Of a stretch of 64,000 nucleotides of DNA, positions 7,325 through 62,046 are shown in pieces. Under the pieces are notes generated by a model, which searched no databases, was not told the origin of the DNA, and was given only the letters and a program-made list of their open reading frames with translations. The position numbers were made by a program, and so were the translations under genes. The number at the start of each line of letters is the position of its first letter. Position 1 is the first letter of the stretch. The stretch is from Ignavibacteriota bacterium (GTDB lineage Bacteria > Bacteroidota > Ignavibacteria > Kapaibacteriales > UBA2268): positions 1,167,589-1,231,588 of the forward strand of contig JAHBUQ010000001.1 of the NCBI GenBank assembly GCA_019637995.1, in the 5' to 3' direction.

Positions 7325-10300
7325 GTGAAACTGTTGTTGGAAAAGATATATCTAAAATCACCTTTGTTGATTTTTGTAATTTTGATATTGTCAAATTATT
7401 CAATATCAATTGCTTATGATTTTTATCATTTCAAAACAGACTACAGTAAATATCCTTCTGTTGAAATTAACGGCATATTAATTAATAACAATCTACCTCA
7501 GAACTTTGGCACCAACAATCTAATAATCAGCGAAAATGCTAAACAATCAGAAATCATTTCAAGTAACTGCAATTTCATCTCAAATTCCGATGAGCAGGTA
7601 AATATATTAATTCTAATTGATTACTCCGCTTCAATGCTAAATAGAAATGCAAATTTAGTGAGAAATACGTTAATTGAGATATTTCAGGATGTTGAATTAA
7701 ATAATCTCAAAATTGGAATTATGGGTTTTAACCATCAGAATTATTTCATTTCAGATTTCAACTCAAATTTTGATGAAATATTTTTTCCTGATGATATTCC
7801 GAATTCAGGTTTTAATGATATTACTAACGCCCTTGCAAATGCAACAACAGGTGCTATAGAAATTCTAAAAAAGTTAAATGGCAGAAAAGAAATTCTATTG
7901 ATAAGCAATGGTTCAGAATCCGGCAATCTGAATACTTTAAGGAATCAACTTATTCAAAATAATATTCGTTTAAATGCTATTGCACTTGATTTTAATCCAT
8001 CACAAATCATAAAACAACTTTCTGAATCAACATCAGGCTTCAGTTTAGGAAAAATTATTAATAATGACGCCTTAAATTCAGCTGTTAAGGGATTTTTATA
8101 TCTTGCCGAATTTCAAGATGCTTGTACAATTTCATATAAATCATTCACTTGTCAAAAAGATAATATTTTAAATCTAAATTTTACTGAATATGGTATTAGC
8201 AGAAATCTGCAAATTGAAATTCCTGAATATAATCACCCAAGACTTTTAATTGAACCAAAATATCATTATTTCGGGCTTCGTCTCCCACCAGCCAAACCTA
8301 CTGTAAATATAAGTCTTACAGCATTGAATGGCGATATTCAAATTGATGAATTTATTGATAATGAATATTTTAGAGTTACAACTCAACCAAAAAATTTTCT
8401 TCTCAGAAATGGGGAATCTAAAACAATTACAATTGAGTTCCTACCAAAAGATTCATCATATATTTTCAGAGATATTGAGATACACGGTAGCTTTTGCAAT
8501 GCCGGAAGAGTCAGTTTGGCAGGAGGCTCGGACAGACTACTTGAAATTGATAAAACAATAAGAGTGACAGCTCCGAACGGTGGGGAGTCACTGCCTGCAG
8601 GCTCATACTATACAATCACTTGGGAAGGAACTTTGCCAAGCGATACAGTGAAAATCGAATACAGTACAAACGGAGGCAGTACTTGGAATAAAATAACAAA
8701 TTCTGCATTCGGTAATAGTTTTGTATGGAGAAATATTCCGAATACAATAAGCAATAATTGCCTTTTAAATGTTAGTCAACTTTCAAAATATGATTTGAGC
8801 CGTAATATCATATCATTGAATGGTATTCTTGGGAATGTTGTCGAATTAGTTTGGCGGAATGACCTCAATGAAATCTATACTGGTAGCACTGATGGTTTTA
8901 TAAGGTTGTGGAATGCCTCAACCGGAGAGCCGATAAGGACAGTAATAGGTGGAATTAGTGAATTAAAAGATTTTGATGTAAGTTCACTGAATAATTATTA
9001 CTGTTTTATAACAGCAAACAGCAACAAAATTAGCTTTAGAAATATTGATAATGAATTCGAGGAATCATCTATCACAGTTGATGGAGAGATAATATCTTCT
9101 GTTGACTGGAATCCGGAAAATAATTTCATTGCAGCTGCAACAGAATCCGGCAAAGTATTTTTGTTTGATTTTCCATCTGCTACTGCTTCAAAAATATATT
9201 CCTATTCAAATCAAATAACATCTGTTGAATGGGACAAAAGCGGTAGTAAATTATCAGTTGGATTTGATGATGGATTTGTCAGAGTAATAGACCTGACGAC
9301 AGACCAAGTGACCCATATTAAAGCAAGTGACCAAAGAATAAATTCAGTCCGGTTTAATCCTTTAGGTTCAGTTATAGTAACATCGTCAATGAATGAAATC
9401 ATAAGAGTTTGGGATGTCTCATCAGGAAATAATTTAACAAGTTTTGTAAATAACAGAAAGCCTGTAAACGCACTAGCCTGGGACCCAGCTGCAAAATTTA
9501 TCGCATCATCATCTGCTGACTCTGCTGTTTCATTGTGGCAACCCGGTACCGGAAATAAGTTTTATACTTTTACCGGACACAATAATATGGTAAATAATAT
9601 TAAATGGCGGCACGATGGAGGCAGAATTGCAAGTTCGACAATTCAGGGCGAAGTATTCATCTGGACTCCTGACGATATTCCATTTAGCCGTCCTACTCTT
9701 CAGGAAGATGTCTCCGACAGTGTTTGGTCAATTGTTAATCCAACACTAACAAGCAAAAATGTGAATTTTCCGATTTTGAGGGTTGGCGATGCAATTGATT
9801 CCAACATAACAGCGATTATTAAAAACCCCAATTCATACCCCATTTATATTGATACAATTATCATAAGGGGTGCAAGCCGCTCATTTAGCATATCATCAGA
9901 AATGCCGCTTTTTCCTGTTAGCCTTAATTCCGGTGATTCAATTAACCTCATGATCAGGTTCAATCCCGAATCAAGTGGCTCGAAGTTGGATACATTATTA
10001 TTTCTAAGTGGTTTAAGGGAGTACAGGTCATTTCTGTTTGGTTATGCTGAAGATAAATTGATTGAAATTTCACCTGCAGTACATGACTTTGGAATTGTGA
10101 AAATTGGATTTGATTCAGATATCTTTAGATTTAATATTATAAATTTAGGCACAAGTGACATTTACATTGAAAGTATCTCCCCAATCCTTAATCCTGACAA
10201 TCAGTACCAAACTGTTGGATTTTCACCCGGATTTATTCCTTCCGGAAATCAAAAGTCGGTTGAAATGGTATTCAATCCAAGTTCATTTGCAATGTCAGGT

Positions 10301-12316
10301 GCTGTTTTTGATGTAGTTTATGATGGAAAAATTGGGAATGATTTCGTCACACTAAGTGGTGCCGGAGCTGCTCCTCAAATTAACTACCTTTCTGAAATTA
10401 GTCTGAGTGATATTGTTTGCGAAAATACAGCAAGTCAGGAAATATGGATTAAAAATATTGGAAATGAAGTACTTAGAATCAATTCCATTGAATTATCCGA
10501 ATCAGGTAATGACTCATTTGAAATTGATTTGAGTAATACAAATTTTGAAATTATTGAAAAAGATTCTACCAGTATTTTGCTCAATTTTTCAAATTCGCTT
10601 GCGGGAAATTTTGAAACAGAAATTATAATAAATTCTGATATAAATGCTGATAAATCTACAATAAATAACATTAGAATCAATATTCGCAAAGAAATTAGTA
10701 ATTATAAACTTCATCCATCAAATTTATCTTTTTATGTATTTGAGACATCAACCGAAGATTTTTCTACTTTAAAACTGATTAATGATGGAACTATCTCCGG
10801 ATTATTTGAGATTCCTGATCCTTCTGAGCATTTTTCCATTGAAAGTATAGAGCCTCAATTTACAAATCCTGGTGACACAGCATCAGTCTTAGTAAGATTT
10901 TCAGGGACTGTATCAGAGGGACTTTATTCGGAAAATATTTCTTTTATTGATACTTGCGGAAATGTGAAAACTCTCATTCTCGCTGCCTATGTCGGTCCAA
11001 GCGATGCAAGAATTGAAGCCGGGAGCGAAATCAACTTCCCGGATATTCTTTGCTGGACCGATACAATATATCAAAACTTAAAAATCAAAAATGCAGGAAC
11101 AACCCCCCTAATCATATCTTCATTTGAATTTATTGATGAAAATACTTCGTTTTTTATTGAAGATGATATTTTATTAAACAAAATTGATGCCGACAGTGAA
11201 ATTTTAGTAAAGTTTGGTTTTAGACCATTAAAATCTGGAAATTATACAGATAAATTCAGACTAAAAACAAATGATGGAAATTTGAATGATGGTATATTTG
11301 ATGTTGTATTAAATGGTTTTTTCGGGATTGCGGATTTCAAATTATCAGATGATAGACTTGAAATTGATGAGCTGCTTGAGAATGAAACTCATCAGTACAT
11401 TTTTGAGATTATAAACACAGGAAATATTGAATTAAGGTGGGAATTACCTGAAATTAGGGGTAATTTCAGTATAGATTCGATAGTTCCTCCAATTACATTG
11501 CCTCAGGAGAAGTCTTTTGTCTTTGCAACTTTTAATGGAGGTGCTTCTGGTTTTCAATATGCTGAAATTGCTGAATTTAAGAATGTATGTAACACAAACC
11601 GAACTATTCTCCTTTCTGCTATTACTGACGGTCAGCCCAGAGTTGGAATTCGTGCTGGTGAAGTTTCAGCTAAGCCTGGTGATACAATTACTGTACCCAT
11701 TGAAATATTTTCGATTAACGGAACTAATTTACCTGATGTTGAGGGATACAAATTTACCTTAGCTTTTAATCCAACTCTGATTGTACCATTAGATGATGAA
11801 TTCGAGGGATATATCAAGTCTGACGGCAAAAGACATTTAACATATACAGCAGTAAATGTTAACGGTAATGAAAATTCTTATACTTTAAATTTGAATTTTT
11901 TAGCTACTTTAGGCAATGCTGAAAGTACAGAACTAATATTAACAAATCCAAAAGCAATTGGCAACAGCAATATGAAAATTCAGACATATGATGGAGCATT
12001 TTATCTCGATAGCCTGTGCTATGAAAATGGTGTCAGACTTATTGGGAATTACGGGCGGTTAAGATTAGGTCAAAACTTCCCTAACCCTGTTTCAACTGAA
12101 ACAACTGTCAAATTTTCTGTTATTGAAACCGGAAGGCATAGTATATCAATTTTTAATATGCTGGGTAATGAAGTTAGAACTATTTTTGATGATATTATCA
12201 TACCCGGCGAATATCAGGTACAATTCAATATTCATAATCTTCCAATTGGAAATTATATATACAAATTATCAACTCCAACAACCCGCCTGACACGAAAAAT
12301 GACTGTCAACAGATGA
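7325..12316 (+). CDS. Giant T9SS-exported protein fusing VWA, WD40 propeller, ASH and cohesin-like modules
   Basis: This 1663-residue protein starts at GTG 7325. An unusually long hydrophobic leader (to about residue 30, NYSISIA) acts as signal peptide. A von Willebrand A domain (about 88-250) has the MIDAS motif DYSAS near residue 98. A Kre9/KNH-like beta segment (VTAPNGGESLPAGSYYTITW) precedes a WD40-type propeller at about 504-790, with blades ending in IRLWNAS, IRVWDVS, VSLWQPG and VFIWTPD. Several ASPM/SPD-2/Hydin-like beta domains follow to about 1430, then a cohesin-like domain (RAGEVSAKPGDTITVPIE) at about 1438-1555. The C-terminus (LGQNFPNPVSTETTVKFSV ... GNYIYKLST) is a type A T9SS sorting domain. 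Its stop overlaps the start of the downstream methyltransferase by 4 bases. The role is unknown; protein-protein interaction on the cell surface is an inference. Confidence 0.87.
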   Translation: MKLLLEKIYLKSPLLIFVILILSNYSISIAYDFYHFKTDYSKYPSVEINGILINNNLPQNFGTNNLIISENAKQSEIISSNCNFISNSDEQVNILILIDYSASMLNRNANLVRNTLIEIFQDVELNNLKIGIMGFNHQNYFISDFNSNFDEIFFPDDIPNSGFNDITNALANATTGAIEILKKLNGRKEILLISNGSESGNLNTLRNQLIQNNIRLNAIALDFNPSQIIKQLSESTSGFSLGKIINNDALNSAVKGFLYLAEFQDACTISYKSFTCQKDNILNLNFTEYGISRNLQIEIPEYNHPRLLIEPKYHYFGLRLPPAKPTVNISLTALNGDIQIDEFIDNEYFRVTTQPKNFLLRNGESKTITIEFLPKDSSYIFRDIEIHGSFCNAGRVSLAGGSDRLLEIDKTIRVTAPNGGESLPAGSYYTITWEGTLPSDTVKIEYSTNGGSTWNKITNSAFGNSFVWRNIPNTISNNCLLNVSQLSKYDLSRNIISLNGILGNVVELVWRNDLNEIYTGSTDGFIRLWNASTGEPIRTVIGGISELKDFDVSSLNNYYCFITANSNKISFRNIDNEFEESSITVDGEIISSVDWNPENNFIAAATESGKVFLFDFPSATASKIYSYSNQITSVEWDKSGSKLSVGFDDGFVRVIDLTTDQVTHIKASDQRINSVRFNPLGSVIVTSSMNEIIRVWDVSSGNNLTSFVNNRKPVNALAWDPAAKFIASSSADSAVSLWQPGTGNKFYTFTGHNNMVNNIKWRHDGGRIASSTIQGEVFIWTPDDIPFSRPTLQEDVSDSVWSIVNPTLTSKNVNFPILRVGDAIDSNITAIIKNPNSYPIYIDTIIIRGASRSFSISSEMPLFPVSLNSGDSINLMIRFNPESSGSKLDTLLFLSGLREYRSFLFGYAEDKLIEISPAVHDFGIVKIGFDSDIFRFNIINLGTSDIYIESISPILNPDNQYQTVGFSPGFIPSGNQKSVEMVFNPSSFAMSGAVFDVVYDGKIGNDFVTLSGAGAAPQINYLSEISLSDIVCENTASQEIWIKNIGNEVLRINSIELSESGNDSFEIDLSNTNFEIIEKDSTSILLNFSNSLAGNFETEIIINSDINADKSTINNIRINIRKEISNYKLHPSNLSFYVFETSTEDFSTLKLINDGTISGLFEIPDPSEHFSIESIEPQFTNPGDTASVLVRFSGTVSEGLYSENISFIDTCGNVKTLILAAYVGPSDARIEAGSEINFPDILCWTDTIYQNLKIKNAGTTPLIISSFEFIDENTSFFIEDDILLNKIDADSEILVKFGFRPLKSGNYTDKFRLKTNDGNLNDGIFDVVLNGFFGIADFKLSDDRLEIDELLENETHQYIFEIINTGNIELRWELPEIRGNFSIDSIVPPITLPQEKSFVFATFNGGASGFQYAEIAEFKNVCNTNRTILLSAITDGQPRVGIRAGEVSAKPGDTITVPIEIFSINGTNLPDVEGYKFTLAFNPTLIVPLDDEFEGYIKSDGKRHLTYTAVNVNGNENSYTLNLNFLATLGNAESTELILTNPKAIGNSNMKIQTYDGAFYLDSLCYENGVRLIGNYGRLRLGQNFPNPVSTETTVKFSVIETGRHSISIFNMLGNEVRTIFDDIIIPGEYQVQFNIHNLPIGNYIYKLSTPTTRLTRKMTVNR

Positions 12317-21668: not shown

Positions 21669-24600
21669 ATGAAAAATTCTACAATTACACCTTTATTCAT
21701 ATTGAGCAGTATGTTGCTCATTATTATCATAGGACTTACTGTTCCGAATGAAAAATTTCGACATTCTGACCCGGAAGAGTCAGGACCGACTTTCACGAAA
21801 GAAAGGCACAGATATTTCTGGGAAAGATATCAGGACCCTGCTACCGGACTTATTCCAGCAAATGCAAGGTCACGGGAACTTGAATTTGTCAAAAACAGAT
21901 GGTTGAAAAATTATAAAAGTAATAATGCATTGTTACTATCAAACGATACTTGGAGCAGGCGAGGACCTTTTGAAGTTGGCGGCAGAACCCGTGGATTGGA
22001 TATAGATGTCAGAAATGAAAATATCATAATCGCAGGAGGAGTTTCCGGCGGTATGTGGAAATCCATTGACAATGGTTTGACATGGGACAGAACATCATTG
22101 CCACATCAGTTGCAATCTGTGACATGCCTGGTTCAGGATAAAAGACCCGGAAAAGAGGATAATTGGTATTATGGTACAGGTGAATATTGGGGCAATTCAG
22201 CAGGCATATTTGGTGATGGTGTCTATAAATCAACCAATAATGGTGATTCATGGGAAGTCCTTCCATCCACATCAACCAGCAGAGTTCACTCATGGGACCA
22301 GCCATTTGACTTCTGCTGGAATATTGTCACTAATCCCGCTGCACCGGACAGCATAGATGAAGTCGTCGTTGCTACCGCTTCAATGGGTGTATTGAGGTCT
22401 TTTGATGGAGGTACAACATGGAACAATGTATTGGGCAGCAATGCCAGAGCTCTTTTTTCCGATGTTGCAGTTACAAGCGAAGGAGTTTATTACGCTACTT
22501 TAAGCTCTGATGGAGCTGTTAATACCAAAGGAATATTCAGGTCTGAAGACGGAGTTCGCTGGACAAATATTACTCCACCCAACTTCCCTTTGAATTTCCG
22601 TAGAATTGTTATTGGTATTGCACCATCTGATGAATCTCAAGTATATTTTCTCGGTGAAACTCCGGGTTATGGTAAACTGACTTTCAACTCAAGAGGTGAT
22701 AGTTTGTGGCACAGTTTGTGGAAATATGATTTTCAGGGTAGTTCAGGGTCGGTTGTATTAGGAGAGTGGGAAGACCGCTCATTAAATCTCCCAAAACCTG
22801 AACCAACGCGTGGTCAGATGAATTCTCAGCAAGGTTATAATCTTGTAATAAAAGTTAAACCTGATAATCCTGATGTGCTCTTCATAGGTGCAGTTGCGAT
22901 GTACAGGTCTGACAGTGGTTTCAAAGGTACTGACTGGGCTTGGATTGGTGGCACATGTCCTGACGAAAGCTGCGACTATTTTTTCAGATATACTAATCAT
23001 CATGCAGATGTTCATGAAATAGTATTTTCAAATTCGAATCCTGATATTTTATACACTGGCTCAGATGGTGGTGTTCATAAAACACTCGATAATATGTCTG
23101 AAAATGTAGAATGGATTTCACTTAATAACGGTTATTTTACAACTCAATTCTATACAGTTGCAATTGACCACGGCGAGAAATTATCAAGAGAAATTATCGG
23201 TGGACTTCAGGACAATGGAACACTTCTTTCGAGAAATACTGATATGGTTAATAACGAATGGTCAAATCCACTTCGCGCTGACGGCTTTTATTGTAAAATT
23301 CCCGATGGTGCACCTTATTATTATGCTTCACAAAATGGTACGTGGCAGCCTAAAATTAAAATTTACAGAATCGTACATGATGAAAATGGCAATAATGTTA
23401 CAAGCACAAGAATTGACCCAATAGGCGGTGAAGACTTTATATGGAATACACCTTTCATATTAGACCCAAATGATAATAATATCATGTATTTGGCAGGTGG
23501 CAAAATGCTTTGGAGAAATAATGATTTGTCCGGCATTCCTTTTGAGAATAATACTGTTGACTCTATTTCAATAAATTGGGACAGTCTTTCCCATACAAGA
23601 ATAGATTATATAAATACAGCTCCGCTTGGAGAAAGAATAACAGCTGTCTCTGTCTCAAAAAATCCCGCAAATATTGTCTATTACGGCACAAGCAGAGGCA
23701 AACTTTATAAGTTACTTAATGCTAATGAAGGTAATCCTGAACCGATAAATGTAACAGGCAGTAATTTCCCTATTGGTAATATTAGTTCGATAGCATTTGA
23801 CCCTGATAATGCGGACAACGTAGTTATTTCATTTTCAAATTACAACATATTAAGCATATTTATGACAGCAGATGGCGGACAAAACTGGACTTCCATTTCA
23901 GGAAATCTTGAAGAAAACAGAAATGGTACAGGAGCCGGTCCCGGTGTCAATTGGGTTAATATTCTAAAAGTTAATGGAGTTGATGTATATTTTGCAGGTA
24001 CTACTGCTGGATTATTCACGACTGCTTTCTTAAATGGTGATGCAACAGCCTGGCAAATGGAAGGACCTGATGTCATTGGAAATATGGTTGTACACATGAT
24101 TGATGCACGCCAGCAAGACGGTTATGTTGCTATAGGAACTCACGGGACAGGAGTATTTGAAGGTTTTTACAAGAATCTTCCGGGTAAGCCTTTGCCGGTA
24201 AAACTTTCAGAACCTCTTGATGAAACAATGCATGTGAAATCAAATGTTGAACTGTCATGGCAACCAATTAGTGAAACAGGATTTTACGAACTCGAAATTG
24301 CTAAAGATCCAAACTTTATTGATGTTGTCTATTCGGTTTCAGGTATTGCTGATACAAAACATAACTGGATAAATGTAGAACAAGGTAGAATTGATTATTA
24401 TTGGAGAGTTAGAAATTCAGGACCAGGTGGTTTGAGTGATTTTTCAGAAGTATGGAAATTCACTTCTGCTTTGAAACCTCCTAAGATTTTATTCCCAAAT
24501 GCCGGTACAGATCAGGTTATGACGGGGTTTACATTTGAATGGGAGAACGTTGAATATGCTGACCAGTACAGAATTCAGGTAGCTCAGGGGTTTGGAATTA

Positions 24601-25040
24601 TGAATCCTTTTATTGATACTGTTGTTAGTCATCCTTACTTGGAAGTTGATAATTTTGAAAGAAACAAACGATACGTATGGCGTTTAGCTTCTATTGAGGA
24701 TGATAATCAGGGCGAATTTGGAGATGAGTATCATTTCATTACAAGGCATCCGGCTTCTGTTAATGATTTTGATATCACAGGTGGAATTAATATTAGTATT
24801 GAGCCTAATCCAGTCACAGATTTTGCCTATATTAATTTAACGATAGAAACGACTGTCACCGGCAAACTTATGATTTACGATATCAATGGCAGGATATTAG
24901 AAATTTTCGCCGAGCAGTCGTTTATGCCTGGCAATATGAGTATTCCTATTGATGCATCGAAACTAAATTCCGGATTATACAATATTGTATTCATTACAAA
25001 TAAACAAAAAATTTACAAAAAAATTCAGGTTATAAAATAG
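21669..25040 (+). CDS. T9SS-exported BNR/sortilin-like propeller protein with FN3-like region
   Basis: The 1123-residue protein begins with a signal anchor-like leader (to about residue 25) and a short pro-region. A VPS10/BNR-type propeller covers about 85-800; WSRRGPFEVGGRTRGLDIDV, GGVSGGMWKSIDNGLTWDR and KSTNNGDSWEVLPS are its classical repeat motifs (S-x-D-x-G-x-T-W). Fibronectin III-like domains follow at about 840-1030, and the tail (IEPNPVTDFAYINL ... IYDINGRILEIF ... LNSGLYNIVF) is a type A T9SS sorting domain. GGAG lies 8 bases before the ATG. It sits between DUF58 and the BatD-like gene with gaps of 23 and 3 bases, so it is in the operon. Enzyme activity is not evident despite a glycosidase-like fold. 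Confidence 0.87.
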   Translation: MKNSTITPLFILSSMLLIIIIGLTVPNEKFRHSDPEESGPTFTKERHRYFWERYQDPATGLIPANARSRELEFVKNRWLKNYKSNNALLLSNDTWSRRGPFEVGGRTRGLDIDVRNENIIIAGGVSGGMWKSIDNGLTWDRTSLPHQLQSVTCLVQDKRPGKEDNWYYGTGEYWGNSAGIFGDGVYKSTNNGDSWEVLPSTSTSRVHSWDQPFDFCWNIVTNPAAPDSIDEVVVATASMGVLRSFDGGTTWNNVLGSNARALFSDVAVTSEGVYYATLSSDGAVNTKGIFRSEDGVRWTNITPPNFPLNFRRIVIGIAPSDESQVYFLGETPGYGKLTFNSRGDSLWHSLWKYDFQGSSGSVVLGEWEDRSLNLPKPEPTRGQMNSQQGYNLVIKVKPDNPDVLFIGAVAMYRSDSGFKGTDWAWIGGTCPDESCDYFFRYTNHHADVHEIVFSNSNPDILYTGSDGGVHKTLDNMSENVEWISLNNGYFTTQFYTVAIDHGEKLSREIIGGLQDNGTLLSRNTDMVNNEWSNPLRADGFYCKIPDGAPYYYASQNGTWQPKIKIYRIVHDENGNNVTSTRIDPIGGEDFIWNTPFILDPNDNNIMYLAGGKMLWRNNDLSGIPFENNTVDSISINWDSLSHTRIDYINTAPLGERITAVSVSKNPANIVYYGTSRGKLYKLLNANEGNPEPINVTGSNFPIGNISSIAFDPDNADNVVISFSNYNILSIFMTADGGQNWTSISGNLEENRNGTGAGPGVNWVNILKVNGVDVYFAGTTAGLFTTAFLNGDATAWQMEGPDVIGNMVVHMIDARQQDGYVAIGTHGTGVFEGFYKNLPGKPLPVKLSEPLDETMHVKSNVELSWQPISETGFYELEIAKDPNFIDVVYSVSGIADTKHNWINVEQGRIDYYWRVRNSGPGGLSDFSEVWKFTSALKPPKILFPNAGTDQVMTGFTFEWENVEYADQYRIQVAQGFGIMNPFIDTVVSHPYLEVDNFERNKRYVWRLASIEDDNQGEFGDEYHFITRHPASVNDFDITGGINISIEPNPVTDFAYINLTIETTVTGKLMIYDINGRILEIFAEQSFMPGNMSIPIDASKLNSGLYNIVFITNKQKIYKKIQVIK

Positions 25041-52966: not shown

Positions 52967-55858
52967 TTAATCAAGCTTGATTATTTGTTTATATATAACG
53001 CTATTATCATAATTATCTTTTAATTCTATATCTCCAAAAGTCTTAAATCCATCCGGAGCAACAAATATCGGATTTGTAGTTGAAAATTTGATTAAATTAT
53101 CAGTTCCAGGATAAATTTTCATGTTTGGACTATCAAACTTTAGAGAATTACTCTCACTATAGTAATATTTTTCAGTTAGATTGAATATCCATGGTTCAGA
53201 TTCAAACTTACTATGAGTAAATCCGGCTTCAAATTCAATTCTGTACGTTCCGGCTTTTGCTGCTCTGAAATTAATCTCGGCCGACTTTCTTCCTAACCCG
53301 CTGCTGACAATAGATTCGCCCTTTTCATCAAAAATATTAAATGAAATGTCAGTAGATTTGTTGTATTGCTCATCACTCATTTCAACAATAAATTTGCATT
53401 GTGAAATCTCGTTACCAATTTTAAATGTTTTTTTAAAAATCGAGCTGCCCGTGTGTTTAATCTCTTTCTCAATCATATAGCCCTCAATACTTCCGGAAAG
53501 AGTAGAGTTAATCAATCTACTTCCAAGATTCATTACAGAAAAGCTACCTGACGGCATACTTCCGGCAATATTCTCAAGTTTAGAGATAACCGGTTTATCG
53601 CTTTGAAGCATATAGAACTGAACAGAAAGGTCAAAATATGAATCATTTAAAGACTGATAATGAGAAGCCGGTATAATCTCCCAAATACCGTGAGTCATTT
53701 TTTCACTTGTGATAATTAACTCAATATCTTTTCGCATACTCTCATCAGTTGAAATGCCGGTTCCACTGTTCCTTCCGTCAGGATTATAAAGATATGCCAT
53801 AAGTCCGAAATTTTTCCCATCTACGGGGCTTAGAGTTATTTTTGCAGTTGAGGCACCTGTCGGAGTTTCTATAAAAAACCGTTTGATATCACCAATTGAT
53901 ATTTTTTCGCCCTTAATTTTTAGAGAATAATGATTTTCCGAATTGAATTTATAAGGAATAATTATATTTGCCTGCACATCAAAATCAGCATATTTAGAGC
54001 CCGGCTCTGACTTCGGATATGCCGAAATTCTCCCACTGTAAAGCCCTGGTTTAGTAATTTTCGAACTATCGAAAATCATCCCGAACGAGCCACCAAGCTC
54101 ACCTCTGAGATAAATTTCACTTTTATCGGTTTTTAGCCATGGTGAATCACTCACAAGATTATAAATTCTGTAGAAATTGTGTTTAGTTTCAGCCGGAAGT
54201 TCCTTATAAAATAATGGTTTTACTGCAACAGTCTGCTTTTCACTGCCGGTTGGGAAATATCCGGATGCCTTCCAGAATGCAGCTGAACCTTTTTTATCAG
54301 AATAATAACTATTAGCGGTTTCAATACTGTAATCAGCCGACTTATCAAACTCTCGGCGTTCATTCATTGCCGTGAGATAGTCAAAAGAATTTTGAATATT
54401 GATAAGCCCAATGCCCTGGTCAAGATGACTGTATCCAGCAAGTGGTTTGGCTCCGAATTTCAGTGCTTTTTTTAGCATTGCACCTGTAGTCTTAATATTG
54501 AAATGATTTGCAGCACTGAATAGAATCGCAGCTGCCCCTGCTGCCTGAGGACATGACATACTTGTACCCCAGAAGGCATCACCACGTTCGAATGCCGGAA
54601 CAGAAGAAGACGCTCCGCCCGGAGCTATTACATCAGGCTTGCCTGATTCACCACCGCGTGAACTAAAATTGGTAACCCAAGGAGTATTTCTCAGAGAACC
54701 ATATAAATTTTTGAGAACATCAACCGGTAGCATAGCGCCGACTGATAGAATATTATTAGCACCTGCAGGATTTCCTGTAGAATTTATTCCGGGACCATTG
54801 TTGCCATTTGACGTAATTACAATTACATTCTCGTGTTTGAGTGCAAATTCATTTAAATATTTTTCAATTTCGCTTCTGCCGGGTGTTTCTGATCCGATAC
54901 CATAACTCATAGAGTAAACGCCATACTTGATTCCGGATTCTTTTAAAAAATCTATACCGTATTCATAGGCTTTTTTCATTGCTTCAGTTGTCGTAGCTCC
55001 ACCTGAGAGTAAATTTGAACCGATTTTGAGAGATACAATAAATGCACCCGGAGCCACACCATTATTGCCTTTTTTATTGTAAATTTCATAACCACAGGCA
55101 ATACCACCGCAATGAGTTCCGTGAGAACCGTCACAAGTATTAATGACCATTTTATGAGAATCCGAAGCAAGATTTGCTGACATCACAACCAGTGGACGCT
55201 TTCCTTTATCACCTGAGTAAAAATTGAAATAATCAAGATTATATTTATAAGTAAATCTCGGGATTTCGTCATCTATTGAACCATTACTGTTTTCATCAAC
55301 ATAGTAAACCCATTGCATCGAGCCGATTTCAGGCTTTACCATCCCTATAAATTCTCTAACGATAGACTCAGTAATTTTAATTTTAAAAGCAATCACTGCA
55401 AACTTGTCGTCCTTTCTGCCATTTGAGTTTAAATCACTGACCGGTGAATTCATAAAATGCTTTTTTTCATCAATTACACCATAGAAATATTTCTCATCAA
55501 AGGGTTTGAATTTCAATTTATCTGCACCAGAAATCATTATATCGCCAGCCATCAGGACCTGAAGGCTATTATTAGTTTCAAATTCAGCTTCTTTCAAATT
55601 CAGCACAAGTTGATTAGAGAAATCCTGCATATCAATGACTTTCGGTTTACTTGTTGAAGTAGAAATCATTCCGGGAATTGACGGGTCAACCGAGTTATCC
55701 AAAATGAAAATCACCACTCCCCTGCCGTCGCAATCAGGATTTTGTCTAATAAATTCGTGAGCTCCCATTGATTTTATATCCAAAAAAGGAAATGTATCTT
55801 CCTGTCCGATAACTAAGCTCATATTCAACATCAACAACACAAAAATAATTTTGTACAT
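52967..55858 (-). CDS. Secreted subtilase, tripeptidyl-peptidase-II-like
   Basis: The 963-residue protein has a signal peptide (to about 18) and an S8 catalytic domain. Asp54 lies in VIFILDNSVDPSIPG, His near 249 in DGSHGTHCGGIACG, and Ser near 432 in WGTSMSCPQAAGAA, with an oxyanion Asn in TSNGNNGPG near 355. The 195-residue spacing between Asp and His, and VDPxxPGM after Asp, match TPP II (human D44/H264/S449). The C-terminal 450 residues are beta-rich. TPP II is usually cytosolic, so a secreted form that might trim peptides outside the cytoplasm is notable. No T9SS tail is evident, so the protein may stay periplasmic. Confidence 0.86.
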   Translation of the reverse strand: MYKIIFVLLMLNMSLVIGQEDTFPFLDIKSMGAHEFIRQNPDCDGRGVVIFILDNSVDPSIPGMISTSTSKPKVIDMQDFSNQLVLNLKEAEFETNNSLQVLMAGDIMISGADKLKFKPFDEKYFYGVIDEKKHFMNSPVSDLNSNGRKDDKFAVIAFKIKITESIVREFIGMVKPEIGSMQWVYYVDENSNGSIDDEIPRFTYKYNLDYFNFYSGDKGKRPLVVMSANLASDSHKMVINTCDGSHGTHCGGIACGYEIYNKKGNNGVAPGAFIVSLKIGSNLLSGGATTTEAMKKAYEYGIDFLKESGIKYGVYSMSYGIGSETPGRSEIEKYLNEFALKHENVIVITSNGNNGPGINSTGNPAGANNILSVGAMLPVDVLKNLYGSLRNTPWVTNFSSRGGESGKPDVIAPGGASSSVPAFERGDAFWGTSMSCPQAAGAAAILFSAANHFNIKTTGAMLKKALKFGAKPLAGYSHLDQGIGLINIQNSFDYLTAMNERREFDKSADYSIETANSYYSDKKGSAAFWKASGYFPTGSEKQTVAVKPLFYKELPAETKHNFYRIYNLVSDSPWLKTDKSEIYLRGELGGSFGMIFDSSKITKPGLYSGRISAYPKSEPGSKYADFDVQANIIIPYKFNSENHYSLKIKGEKISIGDIKRFFIETPTGASTAKITLSPVDGKNFGLMAYLYNPDGRNSGTGISTDESMRKDIELIITSEKMTHGIWEIIPASHYQSLNDSYFDLSVQFYMLQSDKPVISKLENIAGSMPSGSFSVMNLGSRLINSTLSGSIEGYMIEKEIKHTGSSIFKKTFKIGNEISQCKFIVEMSDEQYNKSTDISFNIFDEKGESIVSSGLGRKSAEINFRAAKAGTYRIEFEAGFTHSKFESEPWIFNLTEKYYYSESNSLKFDSPNMKIYPGTDNLIKFSTTNPIFVAPDGFKTFGDIELKDNYDNSVIYKQIIKLD

Positions 55859-56115: not shown

Positions 56116-58923
56116 ATGAGAATTATATTTCAAATTTTTTCAATAATGGCAATTCTATTCACAAGCTCATATGCTTTAAGAGCTCAGTATTCCGGTGGCA
56201 CAGGCACTTCAGGCGACCCGTATCAAATCGCTACAACTGATGACTTAATCGAGCTATCAAACTCCTCTGGAGATTGGGATGATTACTTCATCCAAACAGC
56301 AGACATCACTTTTGATGAAAATGAGCAACTTGTTGATTGGGATGGCGACGGCACAGCTGATTGGGATGCCCAAGACCAACTCGGCTTCAGCCCAATTGGT
56401 AATGATGTAATTAGTTTCACTGGTGAATACGATGGGCAAGGACATACAATTAGTAATCTCTTTATCAACAGACCTGCACAGGAATATGTTGGTTTATTTA
56501 GAAGAACCAATAACTCTACAATTTCAAATATTGGTATCGTAGATTGCAATATCACTGGCTTTTTTGCTGTCGGAAGTTTGGTAGGACGATGTGATTCGAA
56601 TAGTGAGATTATCAACTGTTATAGTACTGGAACTTTAACAGGAACAAATCTTATCGGAGGTTTGGTAGGTTCAACTTATGATACAGAAATTATTAACTGT
56701 TACAGTAATGTTACGGTGACTGGAGAAGATGTTGTCGGAGGTCTGGTAGGTCGTAATGAATGGACAAATTCAAAAATTAATAACAGCTATAGTACCGGTG
56801 ATGTAAGTGGTGATGATATTGTCGGCGGTTTGGTAGGAGACAATACAAATTTAGCAGAAATCAATAACAGCTATAGTACAGGCAATGTAAATGCTGATTA
56901 TCAAATCGGAGGTTTGGTAGGTGTGAATTCTACCGACGCTGTAATCAATAACAGCTACAGTACAGGCAGTGTAGATGGCAATGATGCTGTCGGCGGCTTG
57001 GTAGGATTCAATACTGCTATAGTTACCAACTCCTTCTGGAATACAGATGTTTACCCTACAAGTGCGGGTGGTACCGGCAAAACCACAGAAGAGATGCAAG
57101 ACCTAGCTACATTTACAAGTGCAAGCTGGGATTTCGACGCAACTTGGATAATCGGCAATAACTTAAATAACGGTTATCCTGCTCTTTGGGATGGCTTTGA
57201 GGCGAGCTACGAACCAACAGATACAGACAACCCAACAGACGGAGTAATTAACATACGCAACATAGCTGAACTCCGCTGGGTTTCTGAAAATAGCAGTTCT
57301 TGGGGCGATGACTTCGAAATGGATAACGACATTAATGCCGTTGTTACAGAATACTGGAATGCCGGAGCCGGCTTCAGCCCAATAGGAAATCTTGCAACAC
57401 CATTCGAAGGTGAGTATGATGGTCAGGGTAATGAAATTAGCAATCTCTACATCAATAGACCTTCTCAAGATGAAATCGGGCTTTTTGGTAGGACAAATGG
57501 TTCCACAATATCAAATATTGGAATTGTGGATTGCGATATCTCTGGTGATGAATTTGTCGGTGGCTTAGTGGGATATAATATTAGTAGTTCTGAATTCAAC
57601 AATAGCTACAGCACTGGAAGTGTGGAAGGTATCAATTATGTCGGTGGCTTGGTGGGACTTAATAATGGAAGTTCTCAAATCAATAACAGCTACAGTACTG
57701 GAAGTGTGGAAGGTAATTTCTCGGTTGGTGGTTTGGTGGGATTGAATCAATCAAGTTCTGAAATCAATAACAGCTACAGCACAGGTAGTGTGGTAGGTTC
57801 TAATCGTGTCGGCGGATTGGTGGGTTTAAATGGTGGAAGTTCTCAAATCAATAATTGCTATAGCACTGGAAGTGTGGAAGGCACCTCCATTTATGTAGGC
57901 GGCTTGGTGGGATTGAATTCTAATAGTTCCCAAATCAATAATAGCTACAGCACCAGTAGCGTTGAAGGTGCTCAATGGGTTGGTGGCTTGGTAGGGTTAA
58001 ATTATAACTCTTCCGAAATCAATAACAGCTATAGCACCAGTAGTGTGGCAGGCACCAGTAATATCGGAGGCTTGGTGGGAGAGAATAATTTATCAACTGT
58101 TAATAACTCTTTCTGGAACATTGATATCTACGCTACAGATAATGGAATTGGTACCGGCAAAACCACAGAGGAAATGAAAACATTAGGTACATTTACCGAT
58201 GTTATGTGGGATTTTGTGCATATATGGCGTATTAATGCACCAACAAATGATGGTTACCCATACTTCGCAAGACAAGACCCCTGTCAATCTCAAACGTTTG
58301 TTGACGTAGCTTTTAATAGTTCTTCGCCCGGCTGGCAAGTAACTCAATTTGATAACCTAAATGATGCTTTAGACTTAGCTTGCGAAGATGCTACTATCAA
58401 CATCTCAAACTACACTCACACCGGAAATATTGACATGACCGGATATAGTTACATCGTTGATGATGGAGACTTTTTACATGATGGTAATCTCAGCGACGGT
58501 CTTATCCAAACAACCGGTACCGGTCGCCTGATTCAGACTGCTGTACAGAATATACCTCGCACCTTCCCGATTACTGATGGTACAAACAACTTTACTGTAA
58601 CTATTACTCCGACAAGCGGATCAACAAGCGGTGTGCTTGGCGTTAAACTCAATACAGGAAAAGAAGTAGAGGGAACGCTGGTCTCACCTATGACTTTCTG
58701 GGATATTTATGGCGAAGAAGACCTTGATGCTACAGTTATCCTAAGAATTGATAAAGCAGCATTGGGCACTACTTCAATTCCTGCAAACGGCATAATCCGT
58801 TTCTGGAATGGAAGCCGATATCAGCCAATTCCTACAGAAAGAGTAAGCATTGTTGAGCATGATACTTACTACATAATCACAATCACAAATATGAATTATT
58901 TCAATAATCCAATAATTGACTAA
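56116..58923 (+). CDS. Exported GLUG-repeat surface protein
   Basis: The 935-residue protein has a signal peptide (to about 24, LRAQ). It holds 13 GLUG units (V/I-G-G-L-V-G-x-N), six at about 155-300 and seven at about 480-665, each followed by xINNSYSTGSVxG. Each block ends in the same sentence-like close, SFWNxDxYxTxxGTGKTTEEM, so the protein is two homologous halves. Residues about 715-935 form a beta-rich domain (NIDMTGYSYIVDDG, FPITDGTNNFTVTITPTSGS) without a T9SS signal. GLUG proteins are thought to be adhesins, known from bacterial surface proteins. A small IPTL-CTERM-like protein follows 20 bases on. Confidence 0.85.
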   Translation: MRIIFQIFSIMAILFTSSYALRAQYSGGTGTSGDPYQIATTDDLIELSNSSGDWDDYFIQTADITFDENEQLVDWDGDGTADWDAQDQLGFSPIGNDVISFTGEYDGQGHTISNLFINRPAQEYVGLFRRTNNSTISNIGIVDCNITGFFAVGSLVGRCDSNSEIINCYSTGTLTGTNLIGGLVGSTYDTEIINCYSNVTVTGEDVVGGLVGRNEWTNSKINNSYSTGDVSGDDIVGGLVGDNTNLAEINNSYSTGNVNADYQIGGLVGVNSTDAVINNSYSTGSVDGNDAVGGLVGFNTAIVTNSFWNTDVYPTSAGGTGKTTEEMQDLATFTSASWDFDATWIIGNNLNNGYPALWDGFEASYEPTDTDNPTDGVINIRNIAELRWVSENSSSWGDDFEMDNDINAVVTEYWNAGAGFSPIGNLATPFEGEYDGQGNEISNLYINRPSQDEIGLFGRTNGSTISNIGIVDCDISGDEFVGGLVGYNISSSEFNNSYSTGSVEGINYVGGLVGLNNGSSQINNSYSTGSVEGNFSVGGLVGLNQSSSEINNSYSTGSVVGSNRVGGLVGLNGGSSQINNCYSTGSVEGTSIYVGGLVGLNSNSSQINNSYSTSSVEGAQWVGGLVGLNYNSSEINNSYSTSSVAGTSNIGGLVGENNLSTVNNSFWNIDIYATDNGIGTGKTTEEMKTLGTFTDVMWDFVHIWRINAPTNDGYPYFARQDPCQSQTFVDVAFNSSSPGWQVTQFDNLNDALDLACEDATINISNYTHTGNIDMTGYSYIVDDGDFLHDGNLSDGLIQTTGTGRLIQTAVQNIPRTFPITDGTNNFTVTITPTSGSTSGVLGVKLNTGKEVEGTLVSPMTFWDIYGEEDLDATVILRIDKAALGTTSIPANGIIRFWNGSRYQPIPTERVSIVEHDTYYIITITNMNYFNNPIID
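56580..57011 (+). repeat. GLUG repeat block 1
   Basis: Six GLUG-coding units within the GLUG-repeat gene, diverged in DNA sequence but sharing GGxGGTTTGGTAGG-type cores spaced roughly 72-78 bases. Confidence 0.7.
57553..58086 (+). repeat. GLUG tandem repeat block 2, 84-base units
   Basis: Seven units; the shared AATCAATAACAGCTACAG-like core starts at 57678, 57762, 57846 and 57933, giving periods of 84, 84 and 87 bases. Unit-to-unit DNA identity is high, unlike block 1, pointing to recent tandem duplication. Confidence 0.82.
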
Positions 58924-58943
58924 GCATAAGGAGAATAATAAAA

Positions 58944-59417
58944 ATGAAAAAATATTTAATTTTAATTATAATAATTTTAGCATCTGCAGCAGTTTTGAAG
59001 TCGGATATGGGTCTTTTCGATGGCGTACTGACGACAACACCTGTGTTTAATATAAATCTTGACAACGCAACATCAGGCGGCTATGTTGAACTCACTAATG
59101 ACGACCTTGACGTTACACAAAAAGGCATAGTTTGGAGCACAAGTACTGAGCCAACTCTATCTTCCAACACCGGCTTCACGCAGGAAGGTGCAGGTCCAAA
59201 CTCGGGAGCCTCTGCAAATTTTACATCCGAAATGAGCAGTTTGGTCAATGGAACAACATATTACGTACGAGCATATATCACAAATGGTGATGGCACTTTC
59301 TACGGAAATGAGGTTAGTTTCGTCTCAGTTCCAACTCTCGGAGAGTGGGGTATGATTGCTCTGGCTACCTTACTTGCGGGCTTTGGTGGCTGGTTTGTAT
59401 GGAGAAGAGTAGTTTAA
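58944..59417 (+). CDS. Small exported protein with FN3-like domain and IPTL-CTERM-like sorting tail
   Basis: The 157-residue protein has a signal peptide (to about 20), one fibronectin III-like domain (GIVWSTSTEPTLSS, MSSLVNGTTYYVRAYITNG, GTFYGNEVSF), and a C-terminal VPTLGEWGM, a hydrophobic helix (IALATLLAGFGGWFVW) and RR. That order fits the IPTL-CTERM sorting signal (PTLxEWG, membrane helix, basic end) described mainly in Proteobacteria. A strong AAGGAG ribosome site precedes the ATG and the GLUG gene ends 20 bases before. A GAAA-loop terminator follows. Whether a matching sorting enzyme exists in this genome cannot be seen here. Confidence 0.8.
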   Translation: MKKYLILIIIILASAAVLKSDMGLFDGVLTTTPVFNINLDNATSGGYVELTNDDLDVTQKGIVWSTSTEPTLSSNTGFTQEGAGPNSGASANFTSEMSSLVNGTTYYVRAYITNGDGTFYGNEVSFVSVPTLGEWGMIALATLLAGFGGWFVWRRVV

Positions 59418-59438: not shown

Positions 59439-59477
59439 AAAAAATAGCCCATTGCTGAAAAGTAGTGGGCTATTTTT
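59439..59477. terminator. Rho-independent terminator after the GLUG/IPTL-CTERM pair
   Basis: AAAATAGCCCATTGCT at 59441-59456 pairs with AGTAGTGGGCTATTTT at 59461-59476 (16 bp with G-U wobbles) around a GAAA tetraloop, then T residues. A runs on the left side allow use by the opposing redox operon as well. Confidence 0.87.
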
Positions 59478-60351: not shown

Positions 60352-62046
60352 TTATTTTATAAATTTCTCTAAAGTTTCCATAAGTAATTCACCTCTTAGT
60401 CCTTCAGTAGCGATAATTTTTCCTTCAGGGTCAATTAAGAAAGCTGTTGGGACACCAACTACTTCAAAAATGGAAACAATATCACTTTCCCAGCTTCCAC
60501 CATAAGAATGTAGCCAAGGAAGATTAGTCTCGATTTGTTTTTCTTTTGGCAACCATGGCATTTTATTCTTACTATCCCTGAACTTTTTAACTTGTGATGC
60601 AGAAGCATCAATCGCCACACTATATATTGTAAAATTCATATCTTTGAATTTATTATATGCCTCAACCAAATGAGGAATCTCTAATAAACAAGGCATACAC
60701 CAAGTGCCCCAAACATCAATTAGTACATACTTTCCACGAAGTTTTGCAGGTGAAATAGTCTCAGAATCATCGTCAAGATTTTTCAAACTGAAATCAGGTA
60801 TTCTTTTTTCCAATACGATATTTTTATCTTTACCAAAATTTGCGCGTGTTCTTGCAGCTTCTTTTGTATCCGGAAATTGCTTCATCAACATATCATAATA
60901 CTCATCTTTCAAATCTTCAAGCTCGTTATAATGACAATAAGTTACAAGAAGCGAAAGAATGCCTGCTTTCGTGTCGTTGGGTTGTTCAGAATCTATAATT
61001 TTCAACAAATACTCCGGTCTCTGAACTTTTCCCAAAAGTATCTCAGCAAATACTGCCTGATAATATTTTGAACCTTTGCTCCAGAGACTTGAAGAAGGGC
61101 TTACAGAATAAATTTCCTGAATCAATTTTTTATCAACTAAGTCTTCAACTCCTCTTACATTAACTCCGTCATGGGCAATGTGAAGATATTCCAAAATTCC
61201 CGTAATTCTTATGTTTGGATCACTTATTTGATTGGTTAATTCGCTCACACGACTCATATAGTCTTTCTTTAATTGGAGACTTTTTGCTGTTTTTTCTTCA
61301 TTTGATAATTTCTGGTCTAAGAATACCATTGATCGATCGCCTAAATAGGCATCAAACTCACGAAGGATTTTGATATAGTTATTGTGCCAATCAGCATAAT
61401 CTTCATTTTGAAAATCAACCAAAGAAAGAAATTCTCCTGAAGGAAAATATTTCGGGTCAAACTTTATCTCAAATTTGCGTGAAGGATTTATTATTACCGA
61501 CCTGTAATCTCCGGCTCCATCATATTCATAACTATCTGACATCGAACCATTAAATGTACGGTTTGAAGGGCTTTTCAGAAATTTTGGATAAATTTGGTAT
61601 TTCAGTGTGTCTGAATCATACTCAACAAGATACGAAAAAGTATTATCTTCATTTTTTCTCATTTCAACAGCTGTGTCAAAATCAAATCCGTTGAACGAAC
61701 CTACCAGATAAATTGCTTCTAAATCATTATATATTTGATTAGGAATTAATTTTGCCATTAGGTTAATTGTATCGAGATTAATTGGAATAGGGAATTTTTG
61801 CGAAATACTAATATGGTCAACAGCAGAAAATGTAAGTTCTACAAAATATTCCGAGTCAACAAAAACTCTTATTATACCCTCATCATCAGGTTCATTTGAT
61901 ACCGTCTCACCCACTTTGTTAGTATAACTAACTAATGATTTTTTGGGAATTTTCTCATCTTGAGTTAAAATCTGACATTGGAAAAGCACTTTGCTTTCTG
62001 CTGAAAAAGCAGCTATCATGAACATGAATAGAATGAGTTTTTTCAT
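60352..62046 (-). CDS. TlpA/ResA-like thiol-disulfide oxidoreductase with large N-terminal extension
   Basis: The 564-residue protein has a signal peptide (to about 18). Residues 30-430 form a mostly beta then alpha region (including RNKDNTFSYLVEYD-like carbohydrate-binding-like strands near 130-150) that I do not recognise. The C-terminal redoxin domain starts with IPDFSLKNLDDDSETISPAKLRGKYVLIDVWGTWCMPC (about 415-452), giving the active-site CxxC as WCMPC near 449-452; VGVPTAFLIDPEGKII near 530 supplies the cis-proline. It should reduce or exchange disulfides in the periplasm. First gene of a three-gene unit. Confidence 0.85.
   Translation of the reverse strand: MKKLILFMFMIAAFSAESKVLFQCQILTQDEKIPKKSLVSYTNKVGETVSNEPDDEGIIRVFVDSEYFVELTFSAVDHISISQKFPIPINLDTINLMAKLIPNQIYNDLEAIYLVGSFNGFDFDTAVEMRKNEDNTFSYLVEYDSDTLKYQIYPKFLKSPSNRTFNGSMSDSYEYDGAGDYRSVIINPSRKFEIKFDPKYFPSGEFLSLVDFQNEDYADWHNNYIKILREFDAYLGDRSMVFLDQKLSNEEKTAKSLQLKKDYMSRVSELTNQISDPNIRITGILEYLHIAHDGVNVRGVEDLVDKKLIQEIYSVSPSSSLWSKGSKYYQAVFAEILLGKVQRPEYLLKIIDSEQPNDTKAGILSLLVTYCHYNELEDLKDEYYDMLMKQFPDTKEAARTRANFGKDKNIVLEKRIPDFSLKNLDDDSETISPAKLRGKYVLIDVWGTWCMPCLLEIPHLVEAYNKFKDMNFTIYSVAIDASASQVKKFRDSKNKMPWLPKEKQIETNLPWLHSYGGSWESDIVSIFEVVGVPTAFLIDPEGKIIATEGLRGELLMETLEKFIK

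Follow-up and report, generated by a model that had tools for sequence, protein, structure and literature searches.

A C-terminal sorting signal is usually taken to label the very protein that carries out the function. How a secreted protein that bears no such signal might be kept on the cell surface is the question raised by a gene pair in the window analysed here, a 64,000-nucleotide stretch of DNA from an Ignavibacteriota bacterium; its genome (G000) belongs to a Kapabacteria relative in the Bacteroidota, in keeping with the FCB-type host suspected in a preliminary description. The first gene (56116..58923, plus strand), recognized from its open reading frame and profile searches, encodes a secreted GLUG protein of 935 residues (PF07581, 158.2 bits against a cut-off of 20.5, in 12 stretches) with a probable Sec signal peptide (56116..56187, plus strand; read from the sequence, its end placed by eye), which we call the passenger. 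After a 20-bp spacer (58924..58943, plus strand), in which an AAGGAGA-like ribosome-binding site was picked out by eye, it is followed on the same strand by a small gene (58944..59417) for a 157-residue protein, the adaptor, consisting of a signal peptide, an FN3-like beta-sandwich and an IPTL-CTERM tail; both open reading frames are as first described. A read-through fusion of the two was rejected, given the 20-bp gap and the different frames. A terminator scan placed a strong intrinsic terminator, a 17-pair stem with a T-rich tail after it (59440..59477, plus strand), downstream of the adaptor gene and found none in the 20-bp spacer; promoter-like sites were about as frequent as chance predicts (15 against an expected 14.2). 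The signal peptides, the short spacing and the terminator behind both genes suggest that passenger and adaptor would be co-transcribed and Sec-exported. Our reading, to which we give a probability of a little under 0.6, is that the two genes form a surface-display cassette, with an XrtH-like exosortase as its sorting enzyme. The likely role of the small tagged protein is to retain the adhesin at the cell surface; a coupling between them is suggested by gene order, by the way domains are paired and by a single domain swap.

The prevailing sorting route in this genome is readily recognized, with at least 150 matches to the T9SS type A model TIGR04183, and the three window proteins originally described as T9SS-sorted (1920-5396, 7325-12313 and 21669-25037) all pass its cut-off. 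The passenger resembles T9SS cargo in its adhesin-like repeats and its secretion within the same genome, but neither it nor the adaptor matches TIGR04183 at E<=1, and T9SS sorting of the pair was rejected on this ground. The passenger has no IPTL tail either, as the preliminary description had held, and the signal on the small protein is indeed a different one. Both IPTL models match the adaptor above cut-off (PF18203, 35.4 bits against 20.8, residues 128-155; TIGR04174, 30.5 bits against 20.5), whereas 14 control genomes gave no match to TIGR04174 and one to PF18203. The tail (59325..59414, plus strand) is tripartite, with the motif VPTLGEWGM, a hydrophobic helix (residues 132-156 in the structure model) and two arginines, and it has relatives in the genome, which encodes three IPTL proteins in all. 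The module in front of it (59040..59327, plus strand) was delimited by a single-sequence AlphaFold model (mean pLDDT 62) showing seven strands, and by homology of the adaptor to the FN3-IPTL ends of one-piece adhesins in another genome, G098 (E=2e-32). Foldseek searches with the model returned immunoglobulin-fold matches only, all with E > 0.001, so we describe the module as a beta-sandwich and nothing finer.

Comparison among genomes points to the end of the passenger, not its repeats, as the part associated with the adaptor. The last ~210 residues (approximately 725-935; 58288..58923, plus strand), here termed PD, were delimited by sequence comparison as a conserved domain and are the proposed coupling domain. 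Among the family's 54 genomes, five contain PD, with nine genes in all; eight of the nine have a small FN3-IPTL gene immediately behind them, and in the two genera from which PD and its pairing are known, all eight FN3-only IPTL genes lie behind a PD gene. The exception is a second G000 gene (L071 7105-8298) with no IPTL gene after it, an observation that tells against the cassette reading. The heads of the passengers, among them GLUG and choice-of-anchor beta-helix regions, vary: those of G000, one G117 gene and genus g218 show no mutual alignment, whereas their PD regions align. The other passengers scanned with Pfam lack GLUG, and the constant part is PD or, in a second cassette, a tail-fibre-like domain; GLUG was accordingly rejected as a partner-specific element. 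In agreement with this, whole-passenger searches of four genomes gave their best non-self matches in the C-terminal domain. GLUG is incidental to the pairing. PD has no sequence match in Pfam or, searched as an alignment, in the PDB, and its single-sequence structure model reached a pLDDT of 39.7.

A second cassette follows a parallel design, in which tail-fibre-like (YQG) proteins are paired with SGG-FN3-IPTL proteins and would be coupled to them as adaptors. All 15 SGG proteins adjoin a YQG gene, a count that is not unbiased, because 7 of the recovered YQG proteins and 9 of the SGG proteins had served as seeds for the respective profiles and the loci were fetched by IPTL, PD or exosortase matches. 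SGG-type domains occur widely. The two cassettes meet in a domain swap: G117 encodes an SGG-PD protein followed by a separate FN3-IPTL gene, and G000 encodes SGG fused directly to FN3-IPTL, without PD, both versions sitting in the same YQG-S8 operon type. Together, the PD/FN3-IPTL and SGG/YQG pairings lend comparative support to the idea, voiced in the preliminary description, that the small IPTL protein may serve as anchor or partner.

Gene order can also be explained if the two proteins are co-expressed but act independently, with the IPTL protein an ordinary exosortase substrate, the passenger released or otherwise held, and the operon reflecting shared regulation. Operon neighbours may be co-expressed without binding, about one-third of neighbouring genes in the examined loci (103/288) are equally close, and in exosortase substrates it is normally the functional protein that ends in the tail, as G071 and G098 illustrate. 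Set against this are the recurrence of both pairings across genera with unlike passenger heads and the exchange of SGG-PD for SGG-FN3-IPTL, and we regard independence as rather unlikely. Less probable still is that PD directs secretion or processing from the C-terminus, along a path over the outer membrane that has yet to be recognised, the IPTL protein being an export chaperone or receptor and not a permanent anchor. PD does lie at the extreme C-terminus in 9/9 proteins, as T9SS tails do, a position that an independent secretion signal would also take and that tells against the cassette reading, and scans of the passengers turned up none of the known sorting tails; but at ~210 residues it exceeds the 72-position T9SS type A model, which it does not match, and the G000 SGG protein does without PD when fused to FN3-IPTL.

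The cassette reading calls for a sorting enzyme, and the search for an exosortase-like enzyme proposed at the outset identified one in the genome (G000:C1:488835-489335), a small XrtH-like protein whose gene is directly followed by an overlapping gene for a partner membrane protein. It passes the exosortase/archaeosortase superfamily model TIGR04178 (55.1 bits, cut-off 23) and has the Cys, Arg and His residues that are invariant (C78, R119, H138) in all 11 aligned exosortases; a PDB sequence search with this alignment returned no matches. Its score against XrtH (TIGR04177) is 64.1 bits, below the cut-off of 86, a level passed by 2 of the 10 enzymes scored (88.7 and 100), and it does slightly better against XrtX (72.7 bits, itself below a cut-off of 170), a placement that also tells against the cassette reading. 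XrtH is nevertheless the best or second-best model for all nine IPTL-associated enzymes. The G000 partner scores 21.5 bits against NF041730 (XrtH_assoc), below the cut-off of 35, and the best of the other partners reaches 31.3.

The distribution of the enzyme follows that of the tail. The IPTL signal is rare in the Bacteroidota (10 of 395 sampled genomes). In the class sample (149 genomes) it occurs in eight, all of which have an exosortase, out of nine exosortase-bearing genomes in total (Fisher, 1.8e-12); in the family sample (54 genomes), an exosortase is present in 14 of 15 IPTL-bearing genomes and 2 of 39 others (p 5.3e-10, the genomes being related and hence not independent). The class, family and phylum samples overlap. 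Three genomes break the co-occurrence, contrary to the cassette reading: G496 (76% complete) has IPTL and no exosortase was found in it, and G495 and G504 have an exosortase without IPTL. Across the phylum TIGR04177 is unspecific, matching 114 of 395 genomes with one match above cut-off; it matches nine of the ten IPTL genomes there, G251 being the exception. An IPTL gene adjoins the exosortase gene in G071, G006, G111 and G128 and also in G494 (L062/L141). A plain membrane-spanning C-terminus that has nothing to do with exosortase, on a small inner-membrane protein that holds the passenger in the periplasm, would suit a motif, helix and two arginines and an enzyme that misses the XrtH cut-off, but is highly improbable given that both curated IPTL models match above cut-off and that the tail co-occurs with exosortase and adjoins its gene in several genomes.

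The size and setting of the IPTL genes differ between lineages. Small IPTL genes lie no more than 60 bp behind another gene in 18/23 cases, compared with 1/14 for large one-piece IPTL genes (p 2.7e-5). This comparison covers 37 tailed open reading frames detected by motif pattern in the loci fetched by then, with two G117 genes hand-counted from contig ends and one large frame at a contig edge dropped; loci added later lie outside it, and these contain two more small genes, neither of them within that distance, as well as several large ones. All 14 IPTL genes of G000, G117, G514, G515 and G516, representing two genera, are small adaptors in PD or YQG/SGG cassettes, whereas in sister genera the tail mostly terminates one-piece adhesins.

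In the cassette as we propose it, the IPTL-CTERM tail would first retain the adaptor at the inner membrane; the exosortase would then cleave that tail and hand the protein on to the cell surface, as the XrtH/IPTL pairing and the co-occurrence suggest. The FN3-like domain of the adaptor may then grip PD, keeping the untagged passenger on the surface, a step suggested by the repeated occurrence of PD together with FN3-IPTL and by the swap that involves SGG. More tentatively, and at somewhat less than even odds, the exosortase pathway in these Bacteroidota may have shifted from tagging each surface protein to sorting dedicated adaptors, with interchangeable untagged passengers displayed via PD/FN3 and YQG/SGG couplings; the SGG adaptor would then be a candidate surface element holding MAT-type fibres. 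If a small neighbouring adaptor can carry the tag, untagged surface adhesins will have been missed in annotation, and short exosortase substrates of no evident function may be anchors. Because both PD and FN3 are small and soluble, the proposed coupling is open to a standard binding assay.

The closest known system is IPTL-CTERM/XrtH itself, with which the locus shares a tail recognized by TIGR04174 and PF18203 and a small exosortase that has the Cys, Arg and His residues and an overlapping partner gene. It differs in its T9SS-rich Bacteroidota host, in an enzyme and partner below the XrtH and XrtH_assoc cut-offs, and in a tail confined, in two genera, to small adaptors. In cellulosome-type trans-anchoring, a sortase-anchored cohesin protein such as ScaE holds a dockerin-bearing partner. 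The likeness would be one of function only, in that a small surface-sorted adaptor would bind the C-terminal domain of a passenger that has no tag. Neither a cohesin nor a dockerin domain turned up here, and the sorting enzyme is another. Literature searches returned no papers linking exosortase with XrtH, with IPTL or with Kapabacteria, and a single paper that mentions IPTL-CTERM. Exosortase substrates in the Bacteroidota are poorly known, and a Flavobacterium study that implicated XrtF and its partner in the colonisation of surfaces left the substrates open (PMC10936215).

The YQG proteins recall the MAT fibres of Bdellovibrio: 12 of the 13 scanned match the MAT N-terminal model (NF053851 Bdello_MAT_N) weakly, in every case at the N-terminus, and one carries a phage collar domain. 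They differ in that all scores (22.3-37.8 bits) fall below the cut-off of 60 and that their genes adjoin exosortase-tagged adaptors. The MAT paper describes the surface element bound by the MAT N-terminal domain in Bdellovibrio as unidentified (PMC10769870). The YQG/SGG cassette offers a testable candidate for holding tail-fibre-like surface fibres. A tail like that of the window adaptor is also described for Methylomirabilis lanthanidiphila mela_00855 (IPTL-CTERM domain at residues 285-312; PMC8671808). This is described as the S-layer protein of that organism, which counts in favour of the cassette reading, although it is a one-piece protein of another phylum and not an adaptor.

Two genes of the window, read in the same direction and separated by 20 bp, encode a 935-aa GLUG protein, here called the passenger (56116-58923), and a 157-aa protein, here called the adaptor (58944-59417). 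A terminator with a 17-pair stem lies 3' of the adaptor gene (59440-59477), and a search between the two genes found none. The passenger comprises a signal peptide (judged by eye), GLUG repeats (PF07581, 158.2 bits in 12 stretches) and a C-terminal part without a match in a Pfam scan. The adaptor has a signal peptide, an FN3-like beta-sandwich and an IPTL-CTERM tail that scores above both cut-offs (PF18203, 35.4 bits, cut-off 20.8; TIGR04174, 30.5 bits, cut-off 20.5). Its predicted structure has seven strands between two helices, one at the N-terminus and one at the C-terminus that spans the tail (mean pLDDT 62), and a Foldseek search with this model returned only immunoglobulin-type sandwiches, none with E < 0.001. 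The T9SS tail (TIGR04183) was absent from both proteins; it is present on three other window proteins, and the genome (G000) holds at least 150 matches to the model (150 scored among 268 candidates).

G000 (3.92 Mb, 98.5% complete) encodes three IPTL proteins and a single exosortase-family protein of 166 aa (C1:488835-489335), the 3' end of whose gene is overlapped by a gene for a 216-aa membrane protein. The enzyme passes the general exosortase/archaeosortase cut-off (55.1 bits, cut-off 23) and falls below those for XrtX (72.7 bits of 170), XrtM (65.2 of 125) and exosortase H, XrtH (64.1 of 86); its 216-aa partner likewise scores below the cut-off of the XrtH-associated membrane protein model (21.5 bits, cut-off 35). 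XrtH was the top model for eight of ten related enzymes scanned, two of which passed its cut-off (88.7 and 100 bits), and XrtX for the remaining two. Judged by these model scores, the G000 enzyme is therefore an XrtH-like member of the exosortase family and formally not XrtH. Cys78, Arg119 and His138 do not vary in any of 11 aligned relatives. Related enzymes occur in the named kin Candidatus Kapaibacterium and Ignavibacteria/Ignavibacteriae.

The IPTL tail is rare in the phylum sample (10/395 genomes) and co-occurs with an exosortase. Among 149 genomes of the class, 8 carried the tail and 9 an exosortase, all 8 lying within the 9 (Fisher test, P = 1.8e-12), and among 54 genomes of the family the counts were 15 and 16, with both in 14 (P = 5.3e-10), P values that are too strong because the sampled genomes are kin. 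The exceptions in the family are G496, a 76% complete genome with the tail in which no enzyme was found, and G495 and G504, with an exosortase and no tail. The two genes lie close to each other in G071, G006, G111, G128 and also G494.

When the whole GLUG protein was compared with four genomes, the best non-self matches fell in its last ~210 aa (PD); as judged from sequence, the constant part of the passenger is its C-terminus. A profile built from four PDs identified nine PD genes in 5 of the 54 family genomes; G000 and its sister species G117 have two each, and genus g218 has five. In all nine the PD ends at the protein C-terminus or a few residues short of it. Structure prediction gave only a low-confidence model of the PD (pLDDT 39.7). 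A small gene encoding the FN3-like module and IPTL tail (FN3-IPTL) lies 15-35 bp behind eight of the nine, the exception being the second PD gene of G000 (L071 7105-8298). Behind each of the two G117 PD genes the contig breaks off 134 bp into a small gene, and the contigs with the two G117 IPTL ORFs start inside that sequence, with an exact overlap of 69 bp. The passenger heads differ: that of the window consists of GLUG repeats, G117 has others, and the g218 passenger is a long choice-of-anchor Q protein (97.9 bits, cut-off 25). BLAST among the long heads from G000, G117 and g218 gave no match between genera. The 134 bp of adaptor sequence are identical at the G117 contig ends (L037, L038, L072 and L073), where the assembly breaks, and the C-terminal halves of the two G117 PD proteins are merely 61% identical.

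A second cassette pairs a tail-fibre-like domain (YQG) with a different adaptor. In the other two G000 IPTL proteins (L005 6913-7536 and 9102-9734) an SGG-type domain at the N-terminus precedes FN3-IPTL, and both genes lie downstream of genes for proteins that start with a YQG domain. One of these YQG proteins matches the phage tail collar model (104.1 bits, cut-off 24). An S8/CUB protease gene separates the members of one pair. Across all fetched loci, which were a non-random draw, a YQG gene occurred in the same gene run for 15/15 SGG proteins and an SGG gene accompanied 16/17 YQG proteins, as counted with profiles seeded from part of these proteins. In genus g217 the order is reversed, with the IPTL gene preceding the YQG gene. 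The Bdellovibrio MAT N-terminal model matched 12 of 13 scanned YQG proteins at 22-38 bits, all below its cut-off of 60, and did not match the YQG protein of L140, in which the domain is C-terminal. At L005 5218-6894, L130 5187-6860, L131 8202-9875, L132 8319-9698 and L133 8021-8851 the gene between YQG and SGG adaptor encodes an enzyme, which is an S8/CUB protease or is thioredoxin/ResA-like or aminopeptidase-like. The same kinds of enzyme as in this cassette of relatives flank the window operon, with a divergent S8 protease gene on its left (52970-55858, minus strand) and a gene for a secreted thioredoxin/TlpA-like protein on its right (60355-62046, minus strand). Orphan 3' ends of IPTL genes, which are leftovers of lost or recombined cassettes, occur in two genera just 5' of YQG genes (L005 3614-3680 in G000; L046 5620-5735 in G071). 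The adaptor genes occur as near-identical repeats, which in G000 (L005 3618-9794) share 97.9% identity over 606 bp.

The two cassettes meet in a domain swap. The operon order is YQG, S8 protease, SGG-FN3-IPTL in G000 and YQG, S8 protease, SGG-PD, FN3-IPTL in G117, so that a PD plus a separate FN3-IPTL gene occupies the place of the one covalent chain of G000, the arrangement expected from a PD-FN3 contact. Large propeller-type adhesins of G098 end in the FN3-IPTL module, again within a single chain; this module and the window adaptor share 44% identity across 126 aa (E = 2e-32). In the two genera represented by G000/G117 and by G514-G516, all 14 IPTL genes encode adaptors of either cassette; in G071, G098 and G496 the tail is mostly at the end of large proteins. 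Among the loci fetched up to the time of this test, 18/23 small and 1/14 large IPTL genes lay within 60 bp behind another gene (P = 2.7e-5; background 103/288).

Sequence analysis establishes the tail and the exosortase-family enzyme together with their co-occurrence, the layout of the operon, the recurrence of the domain pairs and the domain swap. These features suggest a model in which passenger and adaptor would be exported together, PD would bind FN3 and YQG would bind SGG, the exosortase would cleave the adaptor tail, and the adaptor would be delivered to the surface. The IPTL signal and the enzyme type are already known; we found no report in the open-access literature of an exosortase tail on a dedicated adaptor beside an untagged passenger. 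Support elsewhere for a surface location comes from an S-layer protein of Methylomirabilis that bears an IPTL tail (PMC8671808). Surface colonisation by Flavobacterium johnsoniae required the exosortase XrtF and its partner, with substrates not known (PMC10936215), and the MAT paper describes the surface element bound by the Bdellovibrio MAT N-terminal domain as still unidentified (PMC10769870).

Other tails and substrates were also seen. Further exosortases with partner genes (L043 3771-6457 in G098; L054 5787-7450 in G057) adjoin proteins with other kinds of hydrophobic tail, and in G057 the enzyme resembles XrtX (133.5 bits, cut-off 170). G071 has different-tail proteins and exosortase loci at L046 7624-8427 and 8912-10789 and L047 5800-6908. 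Two of its proteins share a tail of ITANIPIWDWW, a helix and a basic terminus; one is an SGG protein encoded downstream of two YQG genes. This tail and the second exosortase pair of G071 are perhaps a second signal-enzyme pair. Finally, in G503 (85% complete, 5% contamination) two tandem minus-strand genes on contig C330 (L142 92-520 and 554-937) encode proteins in which a hydrophobic segment resembling a signal peptide stands at the N-terminus, before a ubiquitin domain (PF00240; scores of 55.7 and 63.6 bits against a cut-off of 25.4) and an IPTL-like tail. They appear to be ubiquitin-like proteins that are exported and carry an exosortase tag.
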